This document shows, one piece after another, positions 3,910 to 25,942 of a stretch of 40,038 bases of DNA (its first letter is position 1; each line of letters opens with the position of its first letter). The DNA is from a bacterium. Lineage in GTDB: Bacteria; Desulfobacterota; Binatia; UBA1149; CAITLU01. Location of the stretch: assembly GCA_003354045.1 (NCBI GenBank), contig PIVZ01000003.1, forward strand, positions 1 through 40,038, in the 5' to 3' direction. Under the pieces are notes generated by a model. That model saw only the letters and a list, made by a program, of their open reading frames with translations, was not told the DNA's origin and ran no database searches. The position numbers were made by a program, and so were the translations under genes.

Positions 3910-4441
3910 CGACGAGTTGTTGAGGCGAGAAGTCGGGCGATATAGTGGGTCGCTACATTCAGACCTCGCCCTCGACCTCCAGGACGCCCGCCGCGAACTC
4001 GCCGAGATTCAGGGGGCCGTTGCGTATGCACACGGCAGACTTGAACGGTATGCACACGGCAGACTTGAACGAGAAGCCGCCTGCCCGCAACCAGAGCACA
4101 TGGCTGATAGCCTTCGGATGCTCGCAGACGAGAGGGCCGCGTGGATCGAGGTTGCGATCGAGCACAATCAACAGTGCGCACAATTGAACCCCACATCGAA
4201 ACCCAGACACCCCCAGCAGGAAGCATGTTCGGAGTGCCGCACTCATCACCCCAATGGCTGGGCCTGTCCAAAACTCCTTGCTGCAACGGAACGCGAACTC
4301 GCCGAGGCTCTGGAAAAGATCGTTCTGCTTAACCGTTTCTGCGAAGCGGCTGGAGCAGAAGCTTACGCGATGGAGAACGGCATGGAGTCCGTAGGGCAGG
4401 CGTGTGCGTTCTTGATCTCAGACGCCGAGGCCAAGCCATGA
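3896..4441 (+). CDS. hypothetical protein with internal 24-bp tandem duplication
   Basis: 181 aa; AYAHGRLERYAHGRLER. Confidence 0.6.
   Translation: MPRVSDELLRREVGRYSGSLHSDLALDLQDARRELAEIQGAVAYAHGRLERYAHGRLEREAACPQPEHMADSLRMLADERAAWIEVAIEHNQQCAQLNPTSKPRHPQQEACSECRTHHPNGWACPKLLAATERELAEALEKIVLLNRFCEAAGAEAYAMENGMESVGQACAFLISDAEAKP
4024..4071. repeat. perfect 24-bp tandem duplication (gtatgcacacggcagacttgaacg x2)
   Basis: Read directly. Confidence 0.95.
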
Positions 4442-4737
4442 AGGACACACTCAAAGAAATCGGCGCGCAGATAGCCCACCTGCTGCTGTGCATGTTGGTA
4501 CTCGCCCCCGTCGTCTTCATGCCCGGCGCGTGGCGAATTCTCGGTGGAGCCATGAGTGGATACCTCGTCGGCTTCATTCGCGAGGACGCGCAGCATCGCA
4601 CGCCGGACCAGACGCCGGAAGGCTGGGGATGGTGGCTCAAGGGGCTGAACACGTACAGCGGCAGGCACAGGGACATGACGGCGTTTGCGCTGGGTGGGCT
4701 GATCGACGGGGCGCTTTATTGGAGGTTCTTGGGATGA
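4438..4737 (+). CDS. membrane protein, hypothetical
   Basis: 99 aa; N-terminal and C-terminal hydrophobic stretches (LLLCMLVLAPVVFMPGAW; FALGGLIDGALYW). Confidence 0.6.
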   Translation: MKDTLKEIGAQIAHLLLCMLVLAPVVFMPGAWRILGGAMSGYLVGFIREDAQHRTPDQTPEGWGWWLKGLNTYSGRHRDMTAFALGGLIDGALYWRFLG

Positions 4738-5462
4738 AACTCGCCCTCGCCCTCATCACCGCCACGCTGCTTGCAGCGCCCACCGCCAACGCGAAGAACT
4801 GGCGTCACCGGCAGGTCGATCACGACGCCACGAAGCGAGTGCTGCTGATTGGGGACTCGATCACAGTGGGACAGGGCGCAAGCAACCGTAACCGAACATC
4901 GTATGCCGCCATATTGCGAAACAAACTACCGTCGCTAGAAATTGTCAACGCTGGTTGCGGCGGTGCCACCAGCGCAGACATCGTGCGGCAAACGCCAGGC
5001 CCGGCATGGGCATGTTCGATGCACGGAACTCTTTGGCCGTCGAAGATTGCTCCTGAGTTGCCGGCTGACGTGGTGATTATCGCCGTTGGATCTAACGACG
5101 TATGGGGTGCGTGGGAAGACGCGCTAATCGAACCAGAGGTCTACGAGGAGAATCTTCGCACGACGATAGGGATGCTCGACGGCGGTCCGGTGATCTTGCT
5201 CACGCCGCCGAAGTGGAAGGGCGCTCGCAGTTCCGTTGTGCTTGACGAACGACTCAGGGCGTACCGCGAGGCCATCTATCGCATTGCTTCAGACACGCTC
5301 TGGGTAGAAGTGGTCGATGTCTATGCGCTGCTGGAACCCGAGGACTTCGAGTGGATCTGGTGGCGAGCGTGGGGGCGCGGTGTCCATCCAAACGACAGCG
5401 GTCATGCGAAGATCGCGGCTGCACTGAATCGCGTCATATCGGCGCTTTTCTCAAAGCGATGA
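4734..5462 (+). CDS. exported SGNH/GDSL-family hydrolase
   Basis: Signal peptide MKLALALITATLLAAPTANA; GDSIT (block I), GSND (block III), HPNDSGH (block V). Confidence 0.85.
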   Translation: MKLALALITATLLAAPTANAKNWRHRQVDHDATKRVLLIGDSITVGQGASNRNRTSYAAILRNKLPSLEIVNAGCGGATSADIVRQTPGPAWACSMHGTLWPSKIAPELPADVVIIAVGSNDVWGAWEDALIEPEVYEENLRTTIGMLDGGPVILLTPPKWKGARSSVVLDERLRAYREAIYRIASDTLWVEVVDVYALLEPEDFEWIWWRAWGRGVHPNDSGHAKIAAALNRVISALFSKR

Positions 5463-5602
5463 AGCTCGCCCTCGCTCTCCTGCTCCTCGGCTGCTCGCCG
5501 CCATCGTTGCCGTTTGGTGATGTCGCGGTCTGCACCAGCCGCTGCACAATGGACCCAGCGGTGCTGGAGGAGTGCCGGTGCGAGTGCCGGTGGGCTGACT
5601 AG
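5459..5602 (+). CDS. small Cys-rich putative lipoprotein
   Basis: 47 aa MKLALALLLLGCSPPS... lipobox-like LLGC; ATGA overlap. Confidence 0.5.
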   Translation: MKLALALLLLGCSPPSLPFGDVAVCTSRCTMDPAVLEECRCECRWAD

Positions 5603-5895
5603 CGAATGTCATGGAACGGCGGCAGGGCTGAGCAGACACCATCCTCAAGGTACGCGAGCCGCTCCCAGATCATTACGTTCTGCGTCGGCAGACCAGCCTC
5701 GTCCGGCCTGAACGCAATAGCGTAGGCAGCCGCATACTCGTCGGTCATGTCGCCGCGCGAGTCGAACCAGCGATCCTTCTCGCAGTCAGTCGTCCCGAGT
5801 CTTCCGCTTTGACAGCCAACGCTGGTAAGAGCCACGCACGCCACCGCGAGCAGACCAAGCAGATTGCGCCTTGTTGGATTCTTGCTGATCTTCAA
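5599..5895 (-). CDS. putative Rz1-like outer-membrane lipoprotein (o-spanin)
   Basis: TTG start at 5895 preceded by GGAGG; lipobox ALTSVGC; overlaps the TM gene 5786-6010 in another frame. Confidence 0.5.
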   Translation of the reverse strand: MKISKNPTRRNLLGLLAVACVALTSVGCQSGRLGTTDCEKDRWFDSRGDMTDEYAAAYAIAFRPDEAGLPTQNVMIWERLAYLEDGVCSALPPFHDIR

Positions 5896-6010
5896 GCTGA
5901 TCCTCCGCGTGCTTCTTGTCGGCCTTGTCGCTGCCGAGGCTGACGAGGTAGATGCCGAACCCAACGACCACCACTAGGATGCCAAGGAACAGCCCGAGTT
6001 CCGGGGTCAT
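5786..6010 (-). CDS. putative Rz-like inner-membrane spanin
   Basis: 74 aa; N-terminal TM (LGLFLGILVVVVGFGIYLVSLG) then charged helix; lysis cassette position. Confidence 0.45.
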   Translation of the reverse strand: MTPELGLFLGILVVVVGFGIYLVSLGSDKADKKHAEDQLEDQQESNKAQSAWSARGGVRGSYQRWLSKRKTRDD

Positions 6011-6204
6011 CCGTTCTTCGACTTGCCGGTGTTCCGAGCGAGCCAGTTGATTGCGTCGAGCGCCTTCTGCGTCCACACATCATCTGCCGTATTCGGCGTG
6101 AGCGTTGCGAGTTGTGCGAATGCTCCGACAATCGCCAAGAGCGACATCAGAATGAGCCCCGCGTTTTCCATGATGAACGAGCCTGCCGCGATGAGTGCTT
6201 CCAT
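6007..6204 (-). CDS. small membrane protein (holin-like candidate)
   Basis: 65 aa with one long hydrophobic segment, in lysis cassette. Confidence 0.55.
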   Translation of the reverse strand: MEALIAAGSFIMENAGLILMSLLAIVGAFAQLATLTPNTADDVWTQKALDAINWLARNTGKSKNG

Positions 6205-6213
6205 GCTGTTCTC

Positions 6214-6462
6214 CTAGCTGTTCAGGGTGAATGTCGTAGTGGTGGGATTGGACACTTCGCCACATGTCCAGAACGGCTGCACGGTCGTCGTGCTGGGTGT
6301 CACCCACCAAGGGTTGACCCAAGTCGGAGACTGGTAAATCGCGGTTGGCTGCACTTCTTTGAGTTTCTCTTGGATGCGCTTCCACTGCTTCTCGCTCGGA
6401 GCGCCCTTCATGGACTCTGTGAATCCGTCGAGCCACGCTTTGAATTCTTCGATTGTGTCCAT
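6214..6462 (-). CDS. hypothetical protein
   Basis: 82 aa, RBS-like GGAGAAC upstream. Confidence 0.55.
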   Translation of the reverse strand: MDTIEEFKAWLDGFTESMKGAPSEKQWKRIQEKLKEVQPTAIYQSPTWVNPWWVTPSTTTVQPFWTCGEVSNPTTTTFTLNS

Positions 6463-6471
6463 GCTGTTCTC

Positions 6472-6969
6472 CTATTTCTGAAACGCTTCCGTGAGGTGCA
6501 TCAGCCGCCGCATCCAGCCCTTGAGAAATACCAGAGATGCCGGGCGACGGCGAACGATCCGAATGAAGTTGCTGAGCCGCTGATCGGTGACGTGCTTGGC
6601 GATGGACGTAGGGTGGGATCTCCCGAGAGCACGCATCGTCTTAGGGCCGAACTTGCCGTCTGGGGTCGCCCCAATCGACCGCTGTAGCGCCTTCGTTGCC
6701 ACCTTGGTCCCTGAGTTCACGGCGTAGTCGAATACGGCGAGAGAGGCCGGATACGCGATGCGGTCACAGCGGCACGGAATCCAGTAGTCCTTCTCGTAAA
6801 TCGCTTCTGCTTCGGCGAGCGTCAGATTGGGAATGTCCACGTCCTTGTGCGCTCGCTGCGAGATGCCGAAGTTGGTTCTGCCGCCGGGGTCCGACGGATG
6901 ATCGACGTACCCGCCTTCTCGGCTGATAACGAAGTCGATACAGCGCCGCCATGACGGTCCCATCGTCAA
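6472..6969 (-). CDS. endolysin, glycosyl hydrolase family 108
   Basis: REGGYVDHPSDPGGRTNFGIS catalytic signature plus C-terminal GH108-associated region. Confidence 0.9.
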   Translation of the reverse strand: MTMGPSWRRCIDFVISREGGYVDHPSDPGGRTNFGISQRAHKDVDIPNLTLAEAEAIYEKDYWIPCRCDRIAYPASLAVFDYAVNSGTKVATKALQRSIGATPDGKFGPKTMRALGRSHPTSIAKHVTDQRLSNFIRIVRRRPASLVFLKGWMRRLMHLTEAFQK

Positions 6970-7196: not shown

Positions 7197-7427
7197 CTAC
7201 TCCTCATCGCAGATGTCGCCAGTTAGCCGCCCGTCGTCGCACAGTTCCTTGCGGTACTCGTCCACCGCCTTCTCGTCCTCTTGCTTCTGAATCTCGACCT
7301 CGACGTATTGTTCGATGCGCGTGATTCGCTTTTCCTTGTCCGTGTGCCCGTCTTCGGCAACGGCAACCCAACCGCCAACGCCAACGCCGATCAGCAGAAT
7401 CCACCAGTAGTCTTTAAGGATGCTCAT
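7197..7427 (-). CDS. small membrane protein
   Basis: MSILKDYWWILLIGVGVGGWVAVAEDG...; start 7427. Confidence 0.5.
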   Translation of the reverse strand: MSILKDYWWILLIGVGVGGWVAVAEDGHTDKEKRITRIEQYVEVEIQKQEDEKAVDEYRKELCDDGRLTGDICDEE

Positions 7428-7669
7428 CAGTCCCGATACCTCCGCTCGACGCCATAGATCCAATAGTTCAGTTCGTCTGTGTTGAGCGGCATCATGTACC
7501 CGCGCATCGCATCATTGGCGCTAAAGACTAGAACCCACCTATCCCCAGCGGGTCGGCTGTCGATGTAGGCGCACGTCGCAGGATCCGCACTGAAGGCGGC
7601 GCTTGTCCACGACGCCATGCTGCCAGAGGCAACATTCGCAATCAGAAGCAGCAGGAGCGGCAGTCTCAC
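7427..7669 (-). CDS. small predicted exported protein
   Basis: MRLPLLLLLIANVASGSMASW signal-like N-terminus. Confidence 0.55.
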   Translation of the reverse strand: MRLPLLLLLIANVASGSMASWTSAAFSADPATCAYIDSRPAGDRWVLVFSANDAMRGYMMPLNTDELNYWIYGVERRYRD

Positions 7670-8505
7670 GGGATGCTTCCTCCGCGCCAGTTGTCGAAGC
7701 GTATTGCAGTAAACGCGAAATTATCGAACACGCCGACGTGCCGACCGTTGGCTATGCAGGCAGACGACGGGGCGGTGTCCCACGTATCGTCGCAGCCAGC
7801 GGTACAAATTTCATAGGACACTTGGCTAGGGTCTGTCGCCCAATTGGCAAAGGCTACAGGCGCATCTGCACCGTCGAAATGCCATGCCGTCAGTTTGACA
7901 GTATCGTCACGTCCACCGTCAGACGAGATGCCAAGTCCGTCACCAACAACCGGAGTTGCGAAATCACCACCGGCGACGGTGAACGATTTGAGAATCGTGC
8001 ATGTACTTCCGGTGCAGGCCCGAAGACTGATCGTCGTATCCCCCTCGAAGTGGAACCCGTAGAAACATGAATTCGCGTCGTATCCCATGTCCCCGCGTAT
8101 GGCTGGACCGCCGAGCCTCAAATCAGAGAGACTGAATAGCGAGATGCCGGAATACTGTGCAAGGCTCGCCACGCCCGGTTGTGCGTACAAAACGCTCGTG
8201 GCATTCGAAAGCGGCGCGAACAGTGCGACACTACCGGCAGTTCTCCACGTCGCGTTCGGGCTCTTCCAGTCGCACCGCTCCATCGGGCCTTCGTCGGCGC
8301 AAGGCGTTCGCACGGCGGCGCGCGTGAACGAATCAACCCACTCATAGTATCCCGGTGCGCCGCGAGTTGCGCCGCCTTGGCGGTAGCCGCCCTGTGTGCC
8401 CTGTTCGAGCAGTTCACCTTGCGTGCCGCACGGAGCAGCAGCACAGTACGCACTCGCCGATGGAGCAAGCATCAGCAGTAGTGCCGCAATGCAAAGGAAT
8501 CGCAT
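7666..8505 (-). CDS. predicted exported protein, Cys-containing, beta-rich
   Basis: Signal peptide MRFLCIAALLLMLAPSASAYC; 279 aa; start 8505. Confidence 0.65.
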   Translation of the reverse strand: MRFLCIAALLLMLAPSASAYCAAAPCGTQGELLEQGTQGGYRQGGATRGAPGYYEWVDSFTRAAVRTPCADEGPMERCDWKSPNATWRTAGSVALFAPLSNATSVLYAQPGVASLAQYSGISLFSLSDLRLGGPAIRGDMGYDANSCFYGFHFEGDTTISLRACTGSTCTILKSFTVAGGDFATPVVGDGLGISSDGGRDDTVKLTAWHFDGADAPVAFANWATDPSQVSYEICTAGCDDTWDTAPSSACIANGRHVGVFDNFAFTAIRFDNWRGGSIP

Positions 8506-8507
8506 AC

Positions 8508-8972
8508 TCAACCCCCGCCGTGGCAAGTCACCTGCGTGCGCGGCTTTTCCGTGCCGGGGTCGCCGTCTCCAACGACCGTGATCCAGCCAGCCGCTGCACC
8601 CCAGATGATGTCGTCGTCGGCTGCACCACTCAGCGTGGCGTTCAGCACGATTTGGCAGTGGTTTGTGGAGTACGTCGGCTCCAAGCAGTGATAGACGTTG
8701 ACATTCATCGTCCCGCCTGGAGTGGCGCTGTCTACGTCTGCATCGTACAGAACGGTATATTTCATACAGTGCGAGACGGCGAGCAGCGGCGGCGTCGTGT
8801 CGTGCGGATCGTCTTCGTTGTAGTCGAAGCACCGCATATCGTTCTTGCCGATGGTGTTGCTCGTGGTCCCAGATTCAGCAGCGCCGCAAGTCTTCCAATC
8901 GTATGCCGTGGCGGTGCCGGCAAGGAGCAGCCCGAGCAAGAGCCCGAGTGTAATCGAAATGAGATTCTTCAT
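8508..8972 (-). CDS. predicted exported Cys-rich protein (paralogue of 9931-10365)
   Basis: Signal peptide MKNLISITLGLLLGLLLAGTATA; GGAGGA RBS; start 8972. Confidence 0.7.
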   Translation of the reverse strand: MKNLISITLGLLLGLLLAGTATAYDWKTCGAAESGTTSNTIGKNDMRCFDYNEDDPHDTTPPLLAVSHCMKYTVLYDADVDSATPGGTMNVNVYHCLEPTYSTNHCQIVLNATLSGAADDDIIWGAAAGWITVVGDGDPGTEKPRTQVTCHGGG

Positions 8973-9366
8973 GTTGTCCTCCTCCGTCACCGTCTGCAAG
9001 GTTCCCGTCGTCGCACGCCTCACCGAATTCGGTGTCCAGCGTGCCGTCGCCGCAAGCCGCCTTCGGAGGGTTCTGCCATGTGGATGCAAACGCATTGACC
9101 GCGAGCCCGACAGAATCAGCCACCGATGCCTCTGCGGTGCGTGTAGAACTGACGACCTCGCCATTCAGCATTCCCATTCGCAGGAAGGCCGTCACGCAGA
9201 TGTCGTTCGACCATTCTGCTGACCGAACCTTCAACTCCAGGCGAAGTTCCTCACACAGTTCAATGCTGCGAGTAACGTTGGCTGCCGGGACCGTGCATGT
9301 CAGATCCACCGCCTGCGCTTGCCCGGCGACGAACAATGACGCAAAAATAATGACAAAATACTTCAT
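8875..9366 (-). CDS. predicted exported protein with myxococcal-type disulfide-repeat motif
   Basis: Signal peptide MKYFVIIFASLFVAGQAQA; CGDGTLDTEFGEACDDGNLADGDG; AGGAGA RBS; start 9366. Confidence 0.65.
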   Translation of the reverse strand: MKYFVIIFASLFVAGQAQAVDLTCTVPAANVTRSIELCEELRLELKVRSAEWSNDICVTAFLRMGMLNGEVVSSTRTAEASVADSVGLAVNAFASTWQNPPKAACGDGTLDTEFGEACDDGNLADGDGGGQHEESHFDYTRALARAAPCRHRHGIRLEDLRRC

Positions 9367-9374
9367 GGGTTCTC

Positions 9375-9920
9375 CTAGTTGATTCTTTTGCCATAGACAA
9401 TCACTGAGTAGCCTGCGGCCGAGCCGGTACACGCACACGTACCGCTTACACAGCCATCCGGACCAGTTGCGTTGGATGGTGCATCGTGCCTGGCGACCAG
9501 TATGTTGTTTACAGAAACGGTCGTGTTGGCTAGGTCGGTTTGCGTTTCGGAATCCCCGACAGCTTTTAGGTTCGGGCTTCCGATAAAGAATGTCGCCACA
9601 GTCGCCCCGCCGTTGTCGAGAATCAAGTCGCAACCCTCAGTGCCGGTAAGCGGTGCAACGATAATCCCGACATCTACCCTGGTTATCAGTAGATCATGTC
9701 CAGGGATCACCATCTTCGAACTACCGTTGCAAGCGGCATCGGACGCCAGGGTCTGCCCAACTGATGCACACGTACCCTGCACGAACGCGCCATCATTTAG
9801 TGTGTAGTAGGCAATCGGGTATTCTTGCTCCCCCGGCCCCTTCTTGAGCCGAGTGCTCTGGGCAAACACAGGCAGCGCAATCAGCAGCGCGAGAATCAGT
9901 AGAACGATTGATCGTTTCAT
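9375..9920 (-). CDS. predicted exported Cys-containing beta-rich protein
   Basis: Signal peptide MKRSIVLLILALLIALPVFAQ; AGGAG RBS. Confidence 0.7.
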   Translation of the reverse strand: MKRSIVLLILALLIALPVFAQSTRLKKGPGEQEYPIAYYTLNDGAFVQGTCASVGQTLASDAACNGSSKMVIPGHDLLITRVDVGIIVAPLTGTEGCDLILDNGGATVATFFIGSPNLKAVGDSETQTDLANTTVSVNNILVARHDAPSNATGPDGCVSGTCACTGSAAGYSVIVYGKRIN

Positions 9921-9930
9921 TGCGTTGCTC

Positions 9931-10365
9931 CTAGTTGCACTTCACGAGGACGCGGGGGGTGGTCAATACCGGATCGGTAGTGCCCTGCGCGTAAATGAAC
10001 GCAGCCGCCGCACCCAATATCTCGAACGACGTGCTGGCACCCGTCAGCGTCACGTTGTCGATGGGCTTGCAAGAGTCCGTGCTGACCGTGGTCGAGACGC
10101 AGCTAAGAACCCGAATCGTTGTAGTGAACTCGGCCCCCGTATCGTCCGCGTCATACACGATGTCGATGTTGTCGCAGGCATCAACACGGAGAATCGGGCT
10201 CTGCAAGTCCTCAGTCGAAAGGTCTTCGTTCATCTCGAAGCAGGCGATCTGACCGGGCTGCAACATCGGCCCTATCGCCACGTCGTTGATGCAATCCTCC
10301 CATACCGCGCCCGCTGCGGGACCGGCGAGAAGGAGTGCCGCTATCAGGATGCCGATGTTCTTCAT
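9931..10365 (-). CDS. predicted exported Cys-rich protein (paralogue of 8508-8972)
   Basis: Signal peptide MKNIGILIAALLLAGPAAGA; GGAGGA RBS; start 10365. Confidence 0.7.
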   Translation of the reverse strand: MKNIGILIAALLLAGPAAGAVWEDCINDVAIGPMLQPGQIACFEMNEDLSTEDLQSPILRVDACDNIDIVYDADDTGAEFTTTIRVLSCVSTTVSTDSCKPIDNVTLTGASTSFEILGAAAAFIYAQGTTDPVLTTPRVLVKCN

Positions 10366-10375: not shown

Positions 10376-11089
10376 TTACCACCACCCGTGAACAAAGAAC
10401 TTCCACGAGGCGAGTGTGATTGCTACCAGCGACCCGGTCGTTAGCGACCGCACCGCAGGGTTGTTCGTTTCGCAGACGTAGAAGCTGAGGTTCGTCGCGT
10501 CGGCCCAGACCGTGATACCACCGGCTGCCGTCACGTCTGCGCCTGTCGCCATGCCGCCGATGCCCCACGCCACTTCGTCGCCGACTGCGTAGCCATGTTC
10601 GGCCGAGAGGCATTGCGCGTAGGCTCGGATATGCTTCGGTGGGAAGGTCAGCGAGTGCGCCGTGCTGTACTCCTGATCGAGCGTCATCGTGGCCGCGTTG
10701 GTGGATTCGGCATTCGGGATGGCGCGGAGCATCTCCTGATGCCGCATCGCGCCCTTGTCGATGGCGTCCGCATGAGACGAGTCGCTGAACGGGCCGCTTG
10801 CCGTGTAGGTGTACGTCTGGGTGAGTGGCGTGACGCGCTCCACCTCCCACGTCACCGTGGCGGGGAAGTTCGTAGCGCCGCTGATGGGAACAACCGCACC
10901 GGTTGACCCGCTGCCGCCGGTTACCGAATAGTGCGTGTCGAGCGTCAACTCTGTGCGGGCACCTGTGGCGGTCACGACCTTGACGACTCGGATTTCCGAT
11001 GTGGCGTAGAACTCGAATGTGACCGTCTGCGAGCTTTGGTCGCCGGTTCCCGTGAAGCTGAGTTTTTTGTTGGTGGTTGTTACGCTCAT
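10376..11089 (-). CDS. tail fibre-like protein (T7 gp17 N-terminal-like)
   Basis: N-terminus resembles T7-type fibre adaptor (FEFYATSEIRVVKV...Y.VTG..V..TVTWEVERVTPLTQ); follows internal virion protein. Confidence 0.65.
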   Translation of the reverse strand: MSVTTTNKKLSFTGTGDQSSQTVTFEFYATSEIRVVKVVTATGARTELTLDTHYSVTGGSGSTGAVVPISGATNFPATVTWEVERVTPLTQTYTYTASGPFSDSSHADAIDKGAMRHQEMLRAIPNAESTNAATMTLDQEYSTAHSLTFPPKHIRAYAQCLSAEHGYAVGDEVAWGIGGMATGADVTAAGGITVWADATNLSFYVCETNNPAVRSLTTGSLVAITLASWKFFVHGWW

Positions 11090-14000
11090 TGCATCAAAGC
11101 CTCCCGTGCCGCAACGCGCTTGGCTTCCTGTTGCGTTCGGATGAAGTCGCGGAACTGGTCAAACTGCTCGCCTTGGAAATCACTCTCGATTCCACGCGGC
11201 GGCGCAATGGCGTTCTGCGCCGAGCGCCTGAACCGCGTTACCTCGCCGCGAATCCAAAGCGACTTCGTGCCGTCGGGGCCGTCGGTCTTCATGTTGTAGA
11301 TTTCGCTGATACCGCTGACGTTTCCCGACACAACGGCACTGAGCCATTCTTCAGCGCCCATGCCGTGCGCGTTCTCCAAGGCGTGCCCTGCCAACTCGAC
11401 GTACTTCTCGTACACCTCGGGGAACTGGCGCATGTTCACGTCAACGCCTTGGAATGTGGTCTTCTTTCGGATGCGCTGGACGCTCATGCCCTGAGCGGAA
11501 ATCTCTTCGTCGATGGGGGACTGCTTGACCCTCGACGCCTTGATCGGTGATGTCACGTCAATGATGCGACTGAGTGACGGGCTGTACCCCTGCTCACTCG
11601 TCACGACCTTGCCCCACAGGTCGCGCCGCCGGGTGAGCGATGCCTGCCATATCGGAATCATCGACTGCACCGCCTCAGCAACGCCCACCGGGTCTGAGCG
11701 CGTCGGGTCGGTCAGTTTGGTGGCGCTCCGCAACAACGTGTGGGCAGGAACGAATGAAGACACCAACCGCTCGACCACCACGCCGCCGTACCGCTCCGGG
11801 TCTTTCACCGCATCGACGAGTTGCGACATCGAATAGAAATACGATTTGTTGAGCGAGGTCGTAGCCGTTGCAAGCGTCGCTGCCGCGATGATCTCTGCGG
11901 CCCCGGCAGCGTCCTCTTCGTCCACGTCGTAGTCGTCTATGACTTGCTGCACGTTGGCCGCAATCGAGAACACGAAGCCCGCCGGGTCTGTCCGACTGTA
12001 CGGGTAGTAGGTGTCGCCAACCCGAATGCTCTCGAACCTGACGCCCCTGCGCGTGGCGGCTTCGCGCTCGCCAGCATTGTTGGGGGCCACGCCCGTGATG
12101 TAGCCGTGTGCCGTGAGGTCTGATACTGCGGCGAGAACCGTTGCGCCCACGGCAAGTCGCGCCTTCGCGATTTCGGCCTCGGCCCCACCAGCAGCGATGT
12201 TCTTTCGGAAGTTGGCGTTGAGGTGCGAGAGCGCCGGAACTCGCTCGAACGAATACGACATGAGCTTTGTCGGGATCTTCACGAAAGGCAGAACGACCGT
12301 GGTTGCAAGTCTGCCAAGCGCAATGAACACATCGCCCGGACCACCGCGCATCTGCCCGCCACGCCGCAGGGCCACCATCACCTTTCCGATGGTCCCAACG
12401 TCATCTTGGAATGTGCTGTATAGCGCCATGTCGGCGGCGGCAATGCGGATCTTCTCGGGCGGGTCATTGACGAACTTCACATAGTTCGCGGCGATCTCGT
12501 CTGCTGTGCCGCCAAGTTCAAACGCTGCGCGATGCGCCTGCGCGTGGAGTTCCATGCTGTAGCCGACCGACTTGAACAAGAAGTCTTCCGCGCCCAGCGC
12601 CTTGCCGGGCAGGCGAGTGGCCGCACCAGCAAAGTCCACCGCGCGCCCCAACCCTGATTTCTCCGCAAGACCGAACGCCTTGCTGGAAATCTTCGGCTCG
12701 GGCATGTCCAGCTTGCTGCCCTCGCGGATGTACCGATGCGAAAGGGATTCGCTCGCAGCGTCCACGCTCTGCCCGCGAACGCGCTGCGCTGCCAAACTGA
12801 ACAGGTCATTGATGCCGACCATCAGCCCGTGGAACTGCGCCATCGACTCGCCGGGGGCAACACCGCCGCCCTGCGCGAAGACCTTCTCTGCGACGAACCG
12901 CTCGACGAGGTTGTTTGTGAGAACGATGGAGTTGCCGAGATTGTTGACAATGTGCGTGGATGGAGTCCAGAGGAGCCCGAGAACGAACGACTCCTGCACC
13001 GCCTCGATAGTGCGCGCCATGCGCCCACGACGCATCATTGCGCCGAGCTGCCCCGGCGTGGCCCCATTGGCTGCCGCAGACGCGATCCTGTCAGCGAGCA
13101 GGGCGGTTACCTTCTCGCCACCGGATGCTTCGAGTAGTTGATTGAGCATCCGGCCCTGCTCGTTCGTTCCGCCGACCTTGATGTTCCACGACTGGAGTGC
13201 GCGGGCCGTCTCTGCGCGTGCGCCAAGCACCTGTTCATTGATGGCTTCGAACGCCACGAGTGCCTTGCGGAACTTGAACTGATCGACCGGGCCTGCGTTG
13301 GGTGCTCTCGCAGCAGTGGCAAGATCAACCACTTGTGTCGCCGCGCTATCCCAGACCTTGCGGAATGCAACGGACTCCTCGGCGTTGAGCGTTTGCCCGC
13401 GCCTGCGACGGAGCACACCGCGGGCGGTAAGCCCGAGCCGATCCGCCGCTTCTTCTGTCAGTTGGTTGGGCCGAACGTGCCTGCGGGCTCTCGCCGTGGA
13501 CTCCGCGAAGATGTCCGTCACCTCTTGGAACAACGCAGTCACATCCTCGGGGCTGTCAATTCGCTCCAGATTGACTTCGATCTTCGTCTCTTCGAGCGCG
13601 GCGAGAGCCGTGATTTCTTCCCGACTAATGTTGTCCGTGCCGAACTTCGCCTCGATGCGCTTTTCGGCGTCGGCCAGCCGCTTCGCTCCGGTTTCGGCGG
13701 TGACGAGCCTCGGGCCGTCGAGCGGCCCAATGGACGCAGCGCCCTCGGGCAGAGAGTTTCCGGCGGCTAGATCAAGCCGCTGCTGCGCTTCGGCAATTTT
13801 CGCGTCGATCTCTTCCGCCCTGCCTTGTTGTGCGGACTTCTGCGCGTCGGTGGCATCGGCGGGAAGCGGCTCGGAAAGCGCAAGCTTCTCGCTCTCCAGC
13901 GCCTCGCGCGCCTGCGTCACCCGGTCATCAATCGTGGCCTTCGCGGCGCTCGCGATCTCTTTCTCTTTGGCGATCCGCTTGGCAGCACGACCGGCCTTGA

Positions 14001-14811
14001 TGACACGGAGCCCCTGAAGCACGCCATCTGCCACGATGCCGAGCCCGAAGTCCTCCACACCGTTCTTGAGACGGTTGACGACTGCGGGGTCTTCCTCATC
14101 GCGGGACATGAACTCGTCAATCGGCCCGCGAAGGTCGGGGTTCTCCTCGACGAAGGATTCGAGTGCGCCCTCGAGCGGGTCCATCACGAGGAAACTCGAC
14201 ATGAACCCAGCAACGGCATCGCCGGCGATGCGAGCGGCAGCGCCCGTCAATCCGTGCGCCTGCCGGAACTTGTTCACCTGCCCGACGAGCGGCACGAATG
14301 CCGACATGAACTTCACACCCTCGCGCACGACCGTTCCGCCCATCCCGCGCGGGTCGGGAACCTCGGGCAGACCCTTGCGCGCTATCGCGGCGGGAGTGAT
14401 CGAGCGATACTTCTCCATGATGCGGTCTGCTGCGTCGTCAGACATCACGCCATGCAGCGCGAACTCTCGCATGTCGTCGATGGCGTCGAGCGTACCCACG
14501 ACCGCATCGCGCACGCCGCCGACGGTCTGGAGTGGAACCTGCCGAACCGTGTCGATAGCGGCGCTACCGACGGACTTGACTGCGCCCGCACCCGCCCTCA
14601 CCACGCCCGCAGCCGATGTTGAGTCCGCTGCCGTCGGCTGCCGCTCTTGCGCAAGCTCAAACTTGCGCTCCGCAATCATCGCGTCGATCTCGTCGGAGGC
14701 GATCTCCGTACCGCGATCCTGTCGGTACTTCGCGTAGGGCTGCGACAGATCCTCGGTCACTTCGGCGGGAACCGGATTCGCGTCTTCAGGCGTCAGGATG
14801 GGCTCGGTCAT
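11086..14811 (-). CDS. large internal virion protein (gp16-like position)
   Basis: 1241 aa, largest gene, between 500-aa IVP-like gene and tail fibre. Confidence 0.65.
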   Translation of the reverse strand: MTEPILTPEDANPVPAEVTEDLSQPYAKYRQDRGTEIASDEIDAMIAERKFELAQERQPTAADSTSAAGVVRAGAGAVKSVGSAAIDTVRQVPLQTVGGVRDAVVGTLDAIDDMREFALHGVMSDDAADRIMEKYRSITPAAIARKGLPEVPDPRGMGGTVVREGVKFMSAFVPLVGQVNKFRQAHGLTGAAARIAGDAVAGFMSSFLVMDPLEGALESFVEENPDLRGPIDEFMSRDEEDPAVVNRLKNGVEDFGLGIVADGVLQGLRVIKAGRAAKRIAKEKEIASAAKATIDDRVTQAREALESEKLALSEPLPADATDAQKSAQQGRAEEIDAKIAEAQQRLDLAAGNSLPEGAASIGPLDGPRLVTAETGAKRLADAEKRIEAKFGTDNISREEITALAALEETKIEVNLERIDSPEDVTALFQEVTDIFAESTARARRHVRPNQLTEEAADRLGLTARGVLRRRRGQTLNAEESVAFRKVWDSAATQVVDLATAARAPNAGPVDQFKFRKALVAFEAINEQVLGARAETARALQSWNIKVGGTNEQGRMLNQLLEASGGEKVTALLADRIASAAANGATPGQLGAMMRRGRMARTIEAVQESFVLGLLWTPSTHIVNNLGNSIVLTNNLVERFVAEKVFAQGGGVAPGESMAQFHGLMVGINDLFSLAAQRVRGQSVDAASESLSHRYIREGSKLDMPEPKISSKAFGLAEKSGLGRAVDFAGAATRLPGKALGAEDFLFKSVGYSMELHAQAHRAAFELGGTADEIAANYVKFVNDPPEKIRIAAADMALYSTFQDDVGTIGKVMVALRRGGQMRGGPGDVFIALGRLATTVVLPFVKIPTKLMSYSFERVPALSHLNANFRKNIAAGGAEAEIAKARLAVGATVLAAVSDLTAHGYITGVAPNNAGEREAATRRGVRFESIRVGDTYYPYSRTDPAGFVFSIAANVQQVIDDYDVDEEDAAGAAEIIAAATLATATTSLNKSYFYSMSQLVDAVKDPERYGGVVVERLVSSFVPAHTLLRSATKLTDPTRSDPVGVAEAVQSMIPIWQASLTRRRDLWGKVVTSEQGYSPSLSRIIDVTSPIKASRVKQSPIDEEISAQGMSVQRIRKKTTFQGVDVNMRQFPEVYEKYVELAGHALENAHGMGAEEWLSAVVSGNVSGISEIYNMKTDGPDGTKSLWIRGEVTRFRRSAQNAIAPPRGIESDFQGEQFDQFRDFIRTQQEAKRVAAREALMQ

Positions 14812-16310
14812 TGACTGGCACTCTTCCGCGCGGCCTGCGCCTTCCTGAGTGCATCCCAGTCTCGAATCAAGTCCAATTCGCGCTTGTACTCTCGCTCGGT
14901 GATCTCCCCAGAGCCGAGGTCACGATCCAGCGCGGCCTTGGAACGCGCAAACACATCAGCGTCGATCTGCTTCCGGTCGCTGATGAAGCCGAGTGACTTG
15001 TACGGGAAGGGCATACTCAGGGCGATGTCTACATCCAAGGCCGAGTACCGTTCGGTCAGGTCGGCCTCCTTCTCCCGTATCTCTTGCGTCGTCGCGTTTT
15101 GATGCTCGCCCCACCAATCATCGAACTCGTTGAGCGCCTGATCCTTCAGGTTCTTCTGCGCGGCTTCGATCACGGGCTCTTTGAACGTGACAAGACTCAG
15201 TTTGCTATCGAGCCTCTCGCGTGCCGTGTTGTACGGCTGCCCCGGAACGAAGTCGAGCACACGGGAGCGAGCCTTTGCCCGCATACTCATGGCGGTGCCC
15301 GGCCGGATCCACCCGGCACCCACCGCCCTGTCGATGGTGCTGACGACATCGGGGTCTTTCCGGTCCAGTTCGTCTTCGATGATCCCAAGCGTGAACGGAT
15401 CGTCTTGAACGTCCTCGCCTTCCGGCCCGTCGAATCGGTCCATCAGCATCTTGGTTTTCGTCGCTGGCAGCCGCTTGCGGTAATCCGCCAAGTCTTCGTT
15501 CGTGAACGTGCCGTCGCGGATCTCAATCAAGCCCTGCTCGAAGAGGTCGTCTTCGGCCTGAGTGATTGCCTTTTCTGCCTCGCGGTCCCGACGGTTGAGG
15601 ATGGTCGCGGCCCTGCTCTCGAATCGGAACCGCTCGCCCTCGTCGAGATTTGCATACCTGTCCGTGTTCCCGAGCAGTTCGGCCGGGTTTTCACTGAGCA
15701 GTCGCGTGGCGTCGTCTTCGTCGATGTCGTGATCGAGGCGCAGGAGCGCCTTCGCTGTTTCCGTCGTTCCGGCGTGCGGCTCCAGTAGCAGGATGTCTTC
15801 GCGCGCAGACTCCACCGCCATTTCCCGGGTGAGAGGATCGCCAGCAGCAGCAATCTGCTGTCGGTGCTGAAGAATCATGCGCGGCATACTCGCGAGCACG
15901 TTTTCCCGCCGCCTTGTGTCCCGAACGCCGAGGGCTTCAACCTCTCCGATCTGCTGATTGACGGCGAAGAAGGATTCAAGCTGCGAGGAAACGGCATCAT
16001 CCTCGACCGTGGACATCACGGCGTCGAAGTCCTGCTGCGTACCCTCGCTGAACGCCTCGGGGATGCCCTCCACGTCCTGCGCGAGTTCGGCTTCCTGCTT
16101 CCGTCGCAGCAGACTCGCGGCAAGTTCGCCCTTCTTCTCGGCAAACATCACCGCCCGTTGCTGCGCGTTCTCCTCGTCCTGAATCGCAAACGCCAGATCC
16201 GAAATCTGTTGCATCGCCCCGGCAGCAGCGTTCGGCACCCGCGTAGTCGTCTCAATCGGGACTGCTCCAGATCGGACGGCTCGTGCGACTGTGGGGACGG
16301 GGAGTTGCAT
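14808..16310 (-). CDS. internal virion protein (gp15-like position)
   Basis: 500 aa, helical, N-terminus MQLPVPTVARAVRSGAVPIE; synteny. Confidence 0.6.
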   Translation of the reverse strand: MQLPVPTVARAVRSGAVPIETTTRVPNAAAGAMQQISDLAFAIQDEENAQQRAVMFAEKKGELAASLLRRKQEAELAQDVEGIPEAFSEGTQQDFDAVMSTVEDDAVSSQLESFFAVNQQIGEVEALGVRDTRRRENVLASMPRMILQHRQQIAAAGDPLTREMAVESAREDILLLEPHAGTTETAKALLRLDHDIDEDDATRLLSENPAELLGNTDRYANLDEGERFRFESRAATILNRRDREAEKAITQAEDDLFEQGLIEIRDGTFTNEDLADYRKRLPATKTKMLMDRFDGPEGEDVQDDPFTLGIIEDELDRKDPDVVSTIDRAVGAGWIRPGTAMSMRAKARSRVLDFVPGQPYNTARERLDSKLSLVTFKEPVIEAAQKNLKDQALNEFDDWWGEHQNATTQEIREKEADLTERYSALDVDIALSMPFPYKSLGFISDRKQIDADVFARSKAALDRDLGSGEITEREYKRELDLIRDWDALRKAQAARKSASQ

Positions 16311-16846
16311 CAGATCCTCTCGTCTATCCAGTAGCCGCTGGGTACGGTGTGCGGGACGCCCAGGAATCCGCCTGTCGCGGTCGAAGGAGTGCCACTGCCC
16401 TTCACCTCATCCACACGCCGAGAAGCGCCAAGCAGGGTCGATGCGCCGCCCAGAATGCCCTCGAACAGCGCATTCTGTCCGCGCCGCTCTGCGAAGGCGG
16501 CTTCGTTCTCGAATGCGAACTTCTCGCGCAGCGCCGCAACGCGACCCTCTGCGCTGAGTTGCCGAATCACGTCGGCCGCAGAGCCTACGTTCGGATCACC
16601 GCCGCCCTTGGCTGCTCGAGCGCGCGCCGTGCCGACCTTCTGCAACGCGTCGGAGAGCTTCGCGCGGTAGGCTTCTTCGCCCCGTCGCTCGAGGATCTTC
16701 GCGTTGATGCGGCCCTGCCGGTTGCCGAGAATGCCGCCCGCAATCTGGAACCCCGCCGATGCGGCTCCACCCGCAAGGCCGATCTCTCCAGCGTGATCCT
16801 TTGCCCATGCGGAGAGAGCGCCCAACGCTTGTCCGAAGTTAATCAT
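16310..16846 (-). CDS. internal virion protein (gp14-like position)
   Basis: 178 aa, Gly-rich hydrophobic N-terminal segment, helical; synteny. Confidence 0.6.
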   Translation of the reverse strand: MINFGQALGALSAWAKDHAGEIGLAGGAASAGFQIAGGILGNRQGRINAKILERRGEEAYRAKLSDALQKVGTARARAAKGGGDPNVGSAADVIRQLSAEGRVAALREKFAFENEAAFAERRGQNALFEGILGGASTLLGASRRVDEVKGSGTPSTATGGFLGVPHTVPSGYWIDERI

Positions 16847-19395
16847 CAGCTTTCACCTGCCTGCCCTGTCAGGGTCATGCTCAGAATGTTGAACGGCAGC
16901 GGCTTGTCCTGCCGGAAATAGAGTTGCCCCTCGCGGTCCCAACCGGGCGGCGGTCCGAGGTTGAGGTCGCCCGAGAACAGCGGTGTCGGCTCGTTCATGT
17001 TGTCGCGGGTGCTGCGGATCGGCAGTTCCAGCAAGTCGCTGCTGTCGCGGCCGAACTTCCCGCAGTTCGTCTCCGAGACGCGGAGAATGCAGCCGTCGAT
17101 GCGCTTCAAGAGCCCCTGAGTGGACTGCGCCTGCTTGCCACCTGCTGGGCTCGCATCGACGCGCAACGTCTGGAGATCGGAGTTGTACGCAAGGCCGATA
17201 TGGACCGTGCTCGCTGCCGTGTCGAGCGTGATCTGCCCGTTCGCTACGGTCTTGTCAGCGATGTGCATCCCGTCCGCGAGCACTTGCACCGTCTCGCCTT
17301 CGAGGTGATTGAGTCCGTAGAAGACGGTCGCGGGCGAGTCGTCGTAGGTGAGCCCGGAATCCACGAAGAACGAGTCCGTGATGTCCGTCGTGGGCTCGAA
17401 CTGGTCTTCGAGGAATTCGATGTAGCGCGTGGTCACGCTGTTGACCGTGCGCTTGACGCACATCCAGACCTGATCGTGCCCGCCGTCCGGTGACGGGATG
17501 ACTGCGACGTTCTCCACCACTGCATCGCCCGTGCTGAAGTCGCCACCGATCTGATGCCGCGCCCACGCGAAGACCTCCTCTTCTGGGACGTAGGTCAGCG
17601 CGACGAGTTTGCCGTCAGTCCGCGCGCACCAAATGATCGAGTCAGGTGTTAGCTGGTAGTCAATCTCCGAGATCGGACTCGCAGAGACATGATCGGCGAT
17701 GCGGGTGAGGTCGTCTGCGATGTAAGAGTCATCTTGCAAGGCATACCGGAACGCTCGCAGCCGCTTCTTGGTGCGGTCCACGTAGACAATGGAACTACCA
17801 ACAGTCACGGGCCTGATGGCCGCCGCGCCGACCGGGCTCCCGGCTTGCACGTTGATGTTTGTCGGGGTGACTGGTTCAGTGTCGCCGCTCGCTCGCACAG
17901 GAAAGATCGCGCCAGGCGTACCGACTGCGAGCGATCTGCCAACTGACATCCACAATACGTTGTTGACCTGATTCGAGCCGATGATGTAGGTGATACCGTT
18001 GGCGTCAGTTATGGTCAGCGCCCCAAGATCGTGCTGCGTCGGCCCGTATGCGTCGAAATTCCCACTCTCGCTGCCATAGATGGAGTGCGGGCGCTCTGGC
18101 TCGCCCCCCCACCACAAGCGCCCCTCTGCAAACGACACCGCCGCCGGGTAGTTCGCAGGCCAGAATGCACCAAGTCTCCACGTATCCTTCGTATCTCCAG
18201 ACCACTTTTGGCTATTAGTCACGTCAACATTCGTCGTACTGTTGATCGCGTCGATGACGCCGTACCCTGCCGCGAACACGTTCGAGTCTACGTCCTCGCA
18301 TCGTATCAGCCGTCCGACATCTGCCGCCCGGAATCCCGCGTCACCGTTTATGCCCTCAGTGTCAGACGCGGCAATCGTACCGTCGCCAGTGCCGCTTGGG
18401 TTCATGGTCGTCGCCGTCGCATTGATCGAATAAAACGGACCGTCCACAAACGAAACATCGCTGAGTGTCCACAGAGTGTGCCCGGTTCTGCCTAGTTTCG
18501 CTGGCGCGTGGTCTTTGTGGGCGATGTAGAGCACGTCGGCCGATTGCGCAAAGGTGAGTTCGGCAATTTCGGTCTGTGTATAAGTGGTGGTAACCGTGAT
18601 GGGCTGATCTACCGTCCCGCCAGAAGACCATGACGTGTAGCCAGCGGCGCTACCGTCCTCGTCGGTCAGCGTGAAGTTGTCGGCATCAACCCTGGTGATC
18701 TTGAAGAATCGCCCGTTGATCTCAGGCACGTCGCTCGCGGTGTCGATATACACCTCGTCCCCGGTGGAAAACGAGTGCGCCGTAATCTGGATGTTGAGCG
18801 GGTTGGAATCAACCGTTATCGCCTCAATCGCGAGCGCGTCAACATTGATAGTGCCGCCTGACGCATAGTTGTTTACCCACACCGAACCATCAATGTCGAG
18901 TGAAAAACTATCCGCGTCGATGTACGTTGCCGTAAACTGGACCCCGTTAAGCGCCGTCGAAACGTCACCCCCAGGCCCATCGTCCACAACGCCTGTGACC
19001 GTAACAAGCCTACCATCCGGCACGCCATGATCGGCCAACGTGACAACCGCCGGGTTAGCCTCGGTGATATTAGTGACTGTTGATCGCGATGCGCTGGAGT
19101 GCAGGACCGCGCCCTCGTCATAGTAGACGTGAATCTTCAGGGCACTAAACACGAGCATGTACGCCTGCTCGGTCGAGTAGATGAACGGGACTAGCTTGAC
19201 CTTGGCGGTTTGGTCGAATATCGGCTTCACGAACCGCGTGCCGGACCGACGCAGCAAGCCGCCCTCTGCTTGAATCAGGAAGTTGCGAATGACCGCAGCC
19301 GCGCGGTCGTACTTCTGGATGTCCGAGCGCCCGTACAGGCGCGGAGAGACTTCACCGCCGTTGAAGGCGTTGAGCGGCTGAGTAAAGCGGCCCAT
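16846..19395 (-). CDS. tail tubular protein B (T7 gp12-like)
   Basis: MGRFTQPLNAFNGGEVSPRLYGRSDIQKYDRAAAVIRNFLIQAEGGLLRRSGTRFV is the family N-terminal signature; start 19395. Confidence 0.85.
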   Translation of the reverse strand: MGRFTQPLNAFNGGEVSPRLYGRSDIQKYDRAAAVIRNFLIQAEGGLLRRSGTRFVKPIFDQTAKVKLVPFIYSTEQAYMLVFSALKIHVYYDEGAVLHSSASRSTVTNITEANPAVVTLADHGVPDGRLVTVTGVVDDGPGGDVSTALNGVQFTATYIDADSFSLDIDGSVWVNNYASGGTINVDALAIEAITVDSNPLNIQITAHSFSTGDEVYIDTASDVPEINGRFFKITRVDADNFTLTDEDGSAAGYTSWSSGGTVDQPITVTTTYTQTEIAELTFAQSADVLYIAHKDHAPAKLGRTGHTLWTLSDVSFVDGPFYSINATATTMNPSGTGDGTIAASDTEGINGDAGFRAADVGRLIRCEDVDSNVFAAGYGVIDAINSTTNVDVTNSQKWSGDTKDTWRLGAFWPANYPAAVSFAEGRLWWGGEPERPHSIYGSESGNFDAYGPTQHDLGALTITDANGITYIIGSNQVNNVLWMSVGRSLAVGTPGAIFPVRASGDTEPVTPTNINVQAGSPVGAAAIRPVTVGSSIVYVDRTKKRLRAFRYALQDDSYIADDLTRIADHVSASPISEIDYQLTPDSIIWCARTDGKLVALTYVPEEEVFAWARHQIGGDFSTGDAVVENVAVIPSPDGGHDQVWMCVKRTVNSVTTRYIEFLEDQFEPTTDITDSFFVDSGLTYDDSPATVFYGLNHLEGETVQVLADGMHIADKTVANGQITLDTAASTVHIGLAYNSDLQTLRVDASPAGGKQAQSTQGLLKRIDGCILRVSETNCGKFGRDSSDLLELPIRSTRDNMNEPTPLFSGDLNLGPPPGWDREGQLYFRQDKPLPFNILSMTLTGQAGES

Positions 19396-19970
19396 CAGCG
19401 CCTCGCGTCGATCCAGTCGTTGGAGGTGACGATCTCGGGGCTGTCTTCCTGCCCGTCGATGCCCTTCGCGGCCTTGACGAGCAAGTCGTATATCTGCGCG
19501 ATCTGAGCAACCTTGGCGGCGGTGCCGGTGATCTCTTCCGCCCAGTCCATCGCGAGTCGAGCAGCCAACGCCTCGCGGAACTTCGGGTCCATCCGGTTCG
19601 CGTCTTCGAGGTCGGCCGTGTACTTGATCTTGAGCGGTGACGAAAGGTCGGTGACGATGACCGTGCCGGCTGACGTGTTCTCGATTCGGTACTTCAGCAG
19701 CGACGGGTTGTAGACTTCCACGACGCGCAGGCAGTCGGACGGCAGCGGGAACGCCCGCTCGAATTCCCACACGGGCGCGGTGCTGCTCGCCGCAATCGAC
19801 AGCCGCGTCATCGCGAAGTTCCACGGGTGATCGCGCAGCAGCCCTTGACGCAGATCGTCGTAGGTGCGCTCGGCGAGACGACCCGCACGCGAGTTGTCCG
19901 TAACGTCATTGATCGGCGCTTCTCCCAGTTGCGAGAGCGCCGAGTTGATGATTCCGATTTTGCTTGCCAT
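19395..19970 (-). CDS. tail tubular protein A (T7 gp11-like)
   Basis: IINSALSQLGEAPI...AGRLAERTYDDLRQGLLRDHPWNFA signature. Confidence 0.85.
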   Translation of the reverse strand: MASKIGIINSALSQLGEAPINDVTDNSRAGRLAERTYDDLRQGLLRDHPWNFAMTRLSIAASSTAPVWEFERAFPLPSDCLRVVEVYNPSLLKYRIENTSAGTVIVTDLSSPLKIKYTADLEDANRMDPKFREALAARLAMDWAEEITGTAAKVAQIAQIYDLLVKAAKGIDGQEDSPEIVTSNDWIDARR

Positions 19971-20624: not shown

Positions 20625-21485
20625 CTACTCGACGCAACGGATGTCGATGACTCCCGTGGCGTCCATTCGTGTCGCGCCCATGTCGTTCTCCGCGAAGACC
20701 TGCGTGGAGTACGACTTGTCCGCTCGCTCGCTGACCCGCACGTTGAACTCTTCCAACGTGCCGAACAGGATCGAGTTCTTCGCCCACGCCAAGCACTGCC
20801 GGTCTGTGGACGTGGTGAGGCGCTCACTCTGGATCCAGTCGAAGCCCATGAACGAGGAGATGCTCCCGCTCATCAGGGCTCGCATGGACGCATAGTCCGA
20901 GCTGGTGATGGTCGAGTCGTTGAGGACATCTTCCATCTGCTCCTGCGAGACGCAGAGCTTGAACCCCTCCTCGGGGTCGTTCTCTGCCGCACGCAGCACC
21001 TTGTTCGCGCCGATGATCTTGACGAGGGTCAGACCCGCAGCACCCGCAGCGATGGTGTAGTCACCGCCCGGGAACGTCTCGCTGCTTGAGCCGTCCACGC
21101 CGTACTTCGCCGTTCCGAGAGCCGCCGCGATGATGACATCATCGGCTGCTCGACCGAACGCTCGACCGAACGCCACGCTGAACGCGCCACTCGGATCGTT
21201 CAGGGTGCGAAGCATGTCGGCCTTGTCAATCAGGTCGGCGTGCTTGTAGCTGACCGGCACGACCATGCGCCGGGACTGGGGGGTGTCCGTCAGCGGGGTA
21301 TCCGCGTGACGAGTGGTGGACGGAACGGCCGTGACCGAGCCCACCTGATCGAAGAAGTTCCGGTCGCCCGTCTCCAACGTCTCGAATCGGACGTGGTTTC
21401 GGAGTCGGCTCTCCTTCTGCTCCGCGAGGTGCGTGATGCCCTGCTTGAAGCCTTTGACAAAATGTGTCGGTGCCTGAGTGCTCAT
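20625..21485 (-). CDS. major capsid protein
   Basis: 286 aa; MSTQAPTHFVKGFKQGITHLAEQKESRLRNHV...DTPLTDTPQSRRMV matches phage_capsid_2-type capsids; position. Confidence 0.8.
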   Translation of the reverse strand: MSTQAPTHFVKGFKQGITHLAEQKESRLRNHVRFETLETGDRNFFDQVGSVTAVPSTTRHADTPLTDTPQSRRMVVPVSYKHADLIDKADMLRTLNDPSGAFSVAFGRAFGRAADDVIIAAALGTAKYGVDGSSSETFPGGDYTIAAGAAGLTLVKIIGANKVLRAAENDPEEGFKLCVSQEQMEDVLNDSTITSSDYASMRALMSGSISSFMGFDWIQSERLTTSTDRQCLAWAKNSILFGTLEEFNVRVSERADKSYSTQVFAENDMGATRMDATGVIDIRCVE

Positions 21486-22838: not shown

Positions 22839-23100
22839 CTCCTTGGTTTCTGGCTTCCTTCTTCCTGCGCTGCTCCAACTCGCGCAGATAACTTTCGTCC
22901 TTGTCGATCATGTCGAAGATCCGCAGCACGACGCCGCGTGCCCCTTCGCTGAAACTCGTTGCGTTCGGGTCGCCTGCGATGAACGTCGAACGCATCATGC
23001 ACCCGTGGTCCGCGAGGTCGGCGAGCACCTTCTCGCCCTGTGGCGAGTTGAAGACCGTCCTGTAAGCGCCTCGCAATACACGTTGCCTCTCAAACCTCAT
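22825..23100 (-). CDS. Bbp19-like phage protein
   Basis: YRTVFNSPQGEKVLADLADHGCM...GARGVVLRIFDMI signature. Confidence 0.7.
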   Translation of the reverse strand: MRFERQRVLRGAYRTVFNSPQGEKVLADLADHGCMMRSTFIAGDPNATSFSEGARGVVLRIFDMIDKDESYLRELEQRRKKEARNQGDDDE

Positions 23101-24907: not shown

Positions 24908-25942
24908 CTAGTACGCAACCAAGATCATCCACGTATTCGCGGACTGGTCGTCGAGCGCGACGAGAAAGTCGCTCCCGCTTTCGTAGTGCGGGAAATAGCT
25001 AGTCCACTCTACGAGGGGCACAAAGTCCTGTTCTCCGGCCTCGGCATCCGGTGAGGCGACAACGCCCAGCACGCCGTCGTACTGAATCGCCAAGTTGAGA
25101 TCGATCTCCGCAGTATCAATCCACGCAGCGCCAGCGTCGATATACATAACAGCGCCGTTAAACGTGGTCGGGGACTGCGCGCTGGCTTGGATGAATACGC
25201 CGTCAACATCAGCACAAGTAGCGTCGCAGTCAGAGGCGAAGTCAACCTCCATCCACTGCCAGACGTTGGCGGTGGCGTAGGCGGGAACAACCGCGTTCCC
25301 TTCGGCTGAACTGCCGTCGTCAAGCGTGGCGTCTAGGTCACCCGAAAGGAATGTGGTGTCAGAGCGAAGCCAGAATCCGAGGCTGTCAGTGCCCGCATTC
25401 GCGTGGCCCGTAACCGTAAAGTCGATCCCGTGGTTGGCAGCAACCGTTGCGGCCCATGTGTACTTGTAACTACCTGCACCGACGCGGAAGATGGTCGTCT
25501 CTGCGGCTTCGGTCCCGCCCGTAATCGGCGCGGCCTCCCCGATGGGACTGTCGTCCATCAACGCGAAGGCTGCACCAGTACCGTCAATGCTTTCGTCGGT
25601 GGCGGAAGATACGAGCTTGATGCGGGGCACGCCGATGAATTGATTCACGGCCCCAGCGTCACCGCCCGTGGCGTCTGTGGAGATCGTTACATCGCCCGTA
25701 GCGGTAATGGCCCCGGTAACAGCAACAGCCCCGCCAGAGGTTATCGCCCCAGTGGTGGTGAGAGTGCCGTCAGAGGTGACGGTTCCGCCGTCAGTCGTGA
25801 CGATGTACGACGTGGTGGTCGATGTGCCGACTTCGCATGACTGACCGGACGGACATCGACCGGACGTGTTCACTTGTGCCGCATAAGCCGCGAAAGCGAT
25901 GAACGTCAGCGCCAACGTGACCACGATAATTCGGAACTTCAT
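24908..25942 (-). CDS. predicted exported fibre-like protein
   Basis: Signal peptide MKFRIIVVTLALTFIAFAAYAA; TSDGTLTTTGAITSGGAVAVTGAITATGDVTIS repeats; start 25942. Confidence 0.65.
   Translation of the reverse strand: MKFRIIVVTLALTFIAFAAYAAQVNTSGRCPSGQSCEVGTSTTTSYIVTTDGGTVTSDGTLTTTGAITSGGAVAVTGAITATGDVTISTDATGGDAGAVNQFIGVPRIKLVSSATDESIDGTGAAFALMDDSPIGEAAPITGGTEAAETTIFRVGAGSYKYTWAATVAANHGIDFTVTGHANAGTDSLGFWLRSDTTFLSGDLDATLDDGSSAEGNAVVPAYATANVWQWMEVDFASDCDATCADVDGVFIQASAQSPTTFNGAVMYIDAGAAWIDTAEIDLNLAIQYDGVLGVVASPDAEAGEQDFVPLVEWTSYFPHYESGSDFLVALDDQSANTWMILVAY

Follow-up and report, generated by a model that had tools for sequence, protein, structure and literature searches.

Nixviridae prophages of Porphyromonas gingivalis carry signal-peptide genes of unassigned function, whose products have been proposed to modify the outer membrane, and some major capsid proteins also have predicted signal peptides (PMC10367356). 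In phage T5, the gene for the superinfection-exclusion lipoprotein Llp adjoins the receptor-binding gene pb5 (PMC9586334). Here we analyze a block of six consecutive minus-strand genes, A to F (10365 to 7427), that lies between the gp17-type fibre gene and the lysis genes of another phage. An earlier note on this DNA proposed the block as its best candidate for an undescribed system of secreted or surface-displayed proteins. Predicted export, cysteine richness and late position are all supported, and no known phage module matches the block. The word ‘undescribed’ is too strong, given the precedents in PMC10367356, T5 Llp and a pelagiphage-like contig (L181).

Phage genome and gene block

The window is the whole of contig C7 (40,038 bases), one of 1676 contigs in a 5.9-Mb bin. 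It is a podovirus distantly related to T7 whose minus strand encodes a T7-type virion module: genes for portal, capsid, tail tubes A and B, internal virion protein and a gp17 N-domain follow one another in order (Table 1). Among annotated phages, the HTVC010P-type pelagiphages are closest (capsid 44%, portal 36%), and IMG/VR contains a single near relative, the 6.3-kb fragment L089 (portal 62%, capsid 64%). The host is putative, as contamination of the bin that holds the contig is 7%. On the host question, the best matches of ribosomal protein S7 (62–66%) are in Desulfobacterales and Binatota.

Table 1. Features of the 40,038-base window, with scores from the signal-peptide (SP) detector and ribosome-binding sites (RBS)
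Feature	Position	Strand	Evidence
Gene A, 144 aa: signal peptide (cut after residue 20, AGA) and small all-beta 6-Cys domain; paralogue of D	9931-10365	-	SP score 5.08; RBS AAGGAGG
Gene B, 181 aa: signal peptide (cut after residue 20) and 6-Cys domain	9375-9920	-	SP score 5.65; RBS AGGAG
Gene C, 163 aa: signal peptide, ~80-aa domain and truncated myxo_disulf (TIGR02232) repeat	8875-9366	-	SP score 4.76
Gene D, 154 aa: signal peptide and 6-Cys domain; paralogue of A	8508-8972	-	SP score 4.62; RBS GGAGGAGG
Gene E, 279 aa: signal peptide and 10-Cys mature protein	7666-8505	-	SP score 4.87
Gene F, 80 aa, GTG start: signal peptide and ~64-aa mature protein with 1 Cys	7427-7669	-	SP score 4.51; RBS GGAGG
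Gene S, 344 aa: signal peptide and repetitive Thr/Gly-rich protein, between terminase and portal	24908-25942	-	SP score 4.96
SGNH/GDSL hydrolase with signal peptide, plus-strand operon	4734-5462	+	SP score 4.25; PF13472 2.3e-25
Putative 47-aa Cys-rich lipoprotein (MKLALALLLLGC...); start overlaps SGNH stop, convergent with lysis cassette	5459-5602	+	sequence
Rz1-like outer-membrane lipoprotein, lysis cassette, lipobox SVGC	5599-5895	-	RBS GGAGG
Endolysin (glycosyl hydrolase 108 and peptidoglycan-binding), lysis cassette marker	6472-6969	-	
gp17-type tail-fibre gene, short, 237 aa, block border, not exported	10376-11089	-	PHROG tail-fibre N-domain matches, residues 1-122
Internal virion proteins	11086-16846	-	
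Tail tube B	16846-19395	-	
Tail tube A	19395-19970	-	
Capsid	20625-21485	-	
Scaffold		-	
Portal	23097-24701	-	
Terminase	27259-29628	-	

Several other features of the genome were recorded. The contig ends (1-219 and 39887-40038) hold the same 12/33/66-base GGCGGACTCGGC-type tandem repeat, at 91% identity between ends; the genome may be circular or terminally repetitive, with the break inside a repeat. Repeats of the GGCGGACTCGGC-like kind are also present in host-class genomes. The terminase large subunit is apparently split by an intein, with matches to Intein_splicing, Hint and LAGLIDADG at residues ~147-470 of 789. The non-structural region encodes a small MUG113/T5orf172 (GIY-YIG-type) protein (37367-37708, minus strand). 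T7-like portal genes occur in two bacterial genomes of the same class (G070:C160:8153-9739 and G084:C9:66347-67963) and possibly belong to further phages infecting hosts of the source bacterial lineage.

Within the block, the E start codon lies within the D stop (TGAGTATG) and F overlaps the E stop by 4 nt. A gene for a 76-aa membrane protein begins at the F stop, so the block runs into the lysis genes. The late-operon position that the earlier note assigned to the block holds. Its statement that each gene has its own RBS applies to five of the six, which have a clear Shine-Dalgarno sequence; E has only a weak G-rich stretch upstream.

Predicted export and cysteine content

Signal peptides were scored with a rule-based detector that considers n-region charge, the hydrophobic core and the residues at -3/-1 (cut-off 4.2). 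In calibration, it recognized 8 of 9 known E. coli signal peptides. A to F score 4.5–5.65, confirming the proposed run of six signal-peptide genes between tail fibre and lysis cassette. The other ORFs in the window that reach 4.2 encode the S protein, the SGNH hydrolase and the Rz1-like lipoprotein; among the remaining ORF starts the highest score is 3.9 (~1,250 in-frame starts, ORFs of at least 60 aa, both strands). A positive n-region, an uncharged hydrophobic core and small residues at -3/-1, the sequence pattern of Sec-exported signal peptidase I substrates, are present in A to F, S and the SGNH hydrolase (4.25–5.65).

Scores this high are rare in controls. Shuffling the N-terminal residues of A to F gave 4.2 or more in 0.4–2.6% of trials, and 22 of 20,000 random peptides drawn from non-exported proteins reached it. 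In the fuller contigs of related phages, 131 genes follow the homologous fibre gene; six of them reach 4.2, of which at least three look like membrane anchors. Comparing 6/6 in the block with 6/131 in relatives gives p = 1e-7, with the caveat that neighbouring genes are not independent. A survey of 1.7 Mb in 164 contigs of related phages found just five ORFs, each on the coding strand, that combine an ATG, a Shine-Dalgarno sequence and a score of 4.2 or more. Since high scorers are so rare downstream of relatives' fibre genes, the run of six is exceptional among relatives, though single cases exist. From these sequence features we predict, with high confidence, that A to F are exported via Sec.

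Cysteine content points the same way. The mature block proteins have 36 Cys in 884 residues (4.1%) compared to 42 in 6168 (0.7%) for the other window proteins tested (p = 2e-13), which bears out the cysteine richness noted earlier. The three internal virion proteins have zero Cys in more than 1,900 residues. The counts in mature A, B, D and E (6, 6, 6 and 10) are consistent with full pairing. A and D are 37% identical over 107 aa (E 4e-19), and all six Cys are invariant between them. Cysteine content and A/D invariance are independent support for the predicted folding in an oxidizing compartment, and most block proteins are likely to be disulphide-bonded.

The earlier description of the proteins as beta-rich stands for A, whose AlphaFold model has eight strands at modest confidence (pLDDT 61, pTM 0.60). 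The model of B is unusable, and the support is confined to A. Matches of the A fold to CUB, carbohydrate-binding and jelly-roll-like structures are weak (TM-scores up to about 0.5), and we drew no function from them.

The exported set is larger than the six block genes initially proposed, as it also includes S and the SGNH hydrolase. S adjoins a GNAT acetyltransferase gene. Its homologue in the near relative (L089:521-1228) has a signal peptide and the same gene order (45% over the first 58 aa, E 3e-12), so the signal peptide is kept despite only 62% portal identity. The SGNH hydrolase has the GDSI motif and is likely to be active; it lacks the Asp three residues before the HPN histidine, which leaves some uncertainty about activity. 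A host origin of its gene was considered and set aside because the lineage matches are generic TesA-like hydrolases. The Rz1-like lipoprotein is an ordinary exported phage protein.

Relatives and history of the block

Database searches returned little. A, B and E have no relatives in viral contigs, annotated phages or lineage genomes, and no homologues elsewhere in the bin genome or in 57–97 related genomes; for B, the search of phages, viral contigs and 58 genomes of the lineage gave no match. The A/D pair has no relatives in GTDB genomes, and the paralogy of A and D is the only relationship detected for A, B, D or E. PHROG, Pfam, NCBIfam and PDB searches gave nothing convincing for A, B, D, E or F, and A to F match no known virion family. 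A match of D in L075/L077 (E 0.014) is a chance overlap with a capsid protein. No near relative spanning the block was found in the collections searched; L089 ends before the block.

Signal-peptide proteins do occur elsewhere in related phages. Another T7-type phage encodes a repetitive, fibre-like 1153-aa signal-peptide protein between its capsid and tail-tube genes (L168:9700-13161). It has no relatives in annotated phages, and common ancestry with S and its L089 homologue was rejected, as they do not align. Behind the fibre gene of L181, a distant relative, are two signal-peptide proteins (4061-6239, minus strand) of 184 aa, similar to phrog_20531, and 560 aa. In pelagiphages, the slot after the fibre gene holds small proteins, some annotated as virion structural or C1q-like.

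Gene C is the block member with a family match. It matches TIGR02232 at 26 bits (cut-off 20.8, E 5.9e-6), covering profile positions 3-25 of 38 only. D overlaps the 3′ end of C by 98 nt, which cuts the disulphide repeat off at position 25 of the profile. The repeat ends near the start of the D ribosome-binding site, and the remainder of C is the frame that runs through the D signal peptide, as if D with its own RBS had been joined into C, cutting the repeat. C, previously listed as well supported, has an open frame and a signal peptide but is not intact, given the overlap with D.

Each of the 13 genomes searched from the bin's order has TIGR02232 in at least 84 places, and none of 14 control genomes has it. 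Abundance in the bin lineage and absence from controls tie the phage to this lineage. The same distribution suggests that a host-type surface motif was taken up into at least one block gene and that C carries a motif taken from a host-type surface protein. We rejected a host origin for the N-terminal domain of C because essentially the repeat alone aligns. Third-position GC is 0.59 in B and 0.61 in E compared to 0.72–0.84 in core genes; C is also lower, but less so, and codon use in A, D and S is more phage-like. With A and D duplicated and C cut, the block genes appear to turn over fast.

Possible functions and comparison with known systems

Our best reading, which we put slightly below an even chance, is that the block is a lineage-specific late secretome cassette that alters the host surface. 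Made during virion assembly, the six late gene products would be sent into the periplasm and onto the outer surface of a cell about to die. Once the surface was altered or covered, incoming related phages and the phage's own progeny would not be bound productively to the infected cell or its debris. The secreted SGNH hydrolase, encoded on the opposite strand, would cut back polymers at the surface, with S from the head module as a further product for export or display. Whether the block proteins act on the surface rather than as part of the virion we judge evenly balanced. Receptor masking or a superinfection block in particular is possible but somewhat doubtful. T5 provides a precedent for such a putative arrangement, as its exclusion gene for Llp lies beside the receptor-binding gene pb5 (PMC9586334). 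Against surface masking, no block member has a relative of known function, and we infer the step from export to receptor masking. A set of six also argues against this role, since superinfection exclusion in known cases usually takes a single small protein or lipoprotein. A lytic phage that kills in one cycle also has little to gain from exclusion unless co-infection is common.

The tail-fibre neighbourhood suits virion accessories equally. A to E could decorate the virion or form its fibre tips: as proteins dependent on disulphides, they would be exported to the periplasm and join tails or heads once lysis brings the compartments together. We consider this rather unlikely, though several observations fit: the block is directly downstream of a short 237-aa fibre gene, the pelagiphage counterpart of this slot includes annotated virion structural and C1q-like proteins, the model of A is beta-sandwich-like, the L168 signal-peptide protein is encoded between capsid and tail-tube genes, and S lies in the head module with its signal peptide kept in L089. 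However, A to F match no virion protein in family, PDB or PHROG searches, the structural matches of A are weak, and particles would first have to assemble without these parts. A more general form, in which a tailed phage finishes its particle in an oxidizing compartment and secreted disulphide-bonded adhesins attach at burst, would unite S, the L168 protein and A to E under one principle; this we regard as unlikely. The premise that virion proteins normally lack signal peptides is not absolute, given the L168 protein and the capsids in PMC10367356.

Two further explanations seem less probable still. As the block is continuous with the lysis genes (by way of the F/E overlap and the 76-aa membrane protein gene) and an exported hydrolase is encoded elsewhere in the genome, the exported proteins could weaken the outer membrane or surface layer alongside endolysin and spanins. 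We find such a role improbable: spanin-like and endolysin genes are already there, A to F have no hydrolase or spanin features, and Cys-rich folds point to binding over membrane disruption. Even more improbably, the block could be decaying cargo, host surface genes captured in a permissive slot with no infection function. The truncation of C, its host-type repeat and the outlying codon use of B and E fit such decay. Yet six open frames are present with intact signal peptides and mostly good RBSs, codon use in A and D is phage-like, Cys are conserved after deep divergence, and homologues of A, B and E are absent from the rest of the bin genome and from the related genomes searched.

Lytic phages have mostly been studied for their intracellular actions. 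Six probably disulphide-bonded late products and a conserved S would be a sizeable investment in the cell exterior, as in the surface remodelling that we favour, or in particle parts matured outside the cell. Either reading, surface or particle, would explain what a class of orphan phage genes does.

By sequence, A to F would be filed under neither Llp/Cor nor the virion families. Their cleavage sites are AxA-type or similar, without the Cys at +1 of the Llp/Cor lipobox. T5 Llp is likewise a small exported phage protein encoded beside a receptor-binding gene, but it is a single lipoprotein, whereas A to F are several different proteins without a lipobox. The Porphyromonas prophages similarly have several Sec signal-peptide orphans in one phage. 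Those phages are temperate, infect Bacteroidota and follow the Q rule, unlike this T7-type phage with six consecutive Cys-rich late genes. TIGR02232/DUF4215 surface proteins have many tandem copies in the host, compared to one truncated copy, above cut-off, in C. The pelagiphage-like L181/L096 phage also encodes signal-peptide proteins behind its fibre gene, two rather than six, and its late proteins have no detectable homology to A to F. HTVC010P and Lederberg have their late genes in the same order, and small proteins follow the fibre; these HTVC010P-type proteins fail the same detector, except for one likely membrane anchor in HTVC010P. Signal-peptide orphans in phages are thus already known, and what is new here is a run of six Cys-rich late genes in a T7-type phage.
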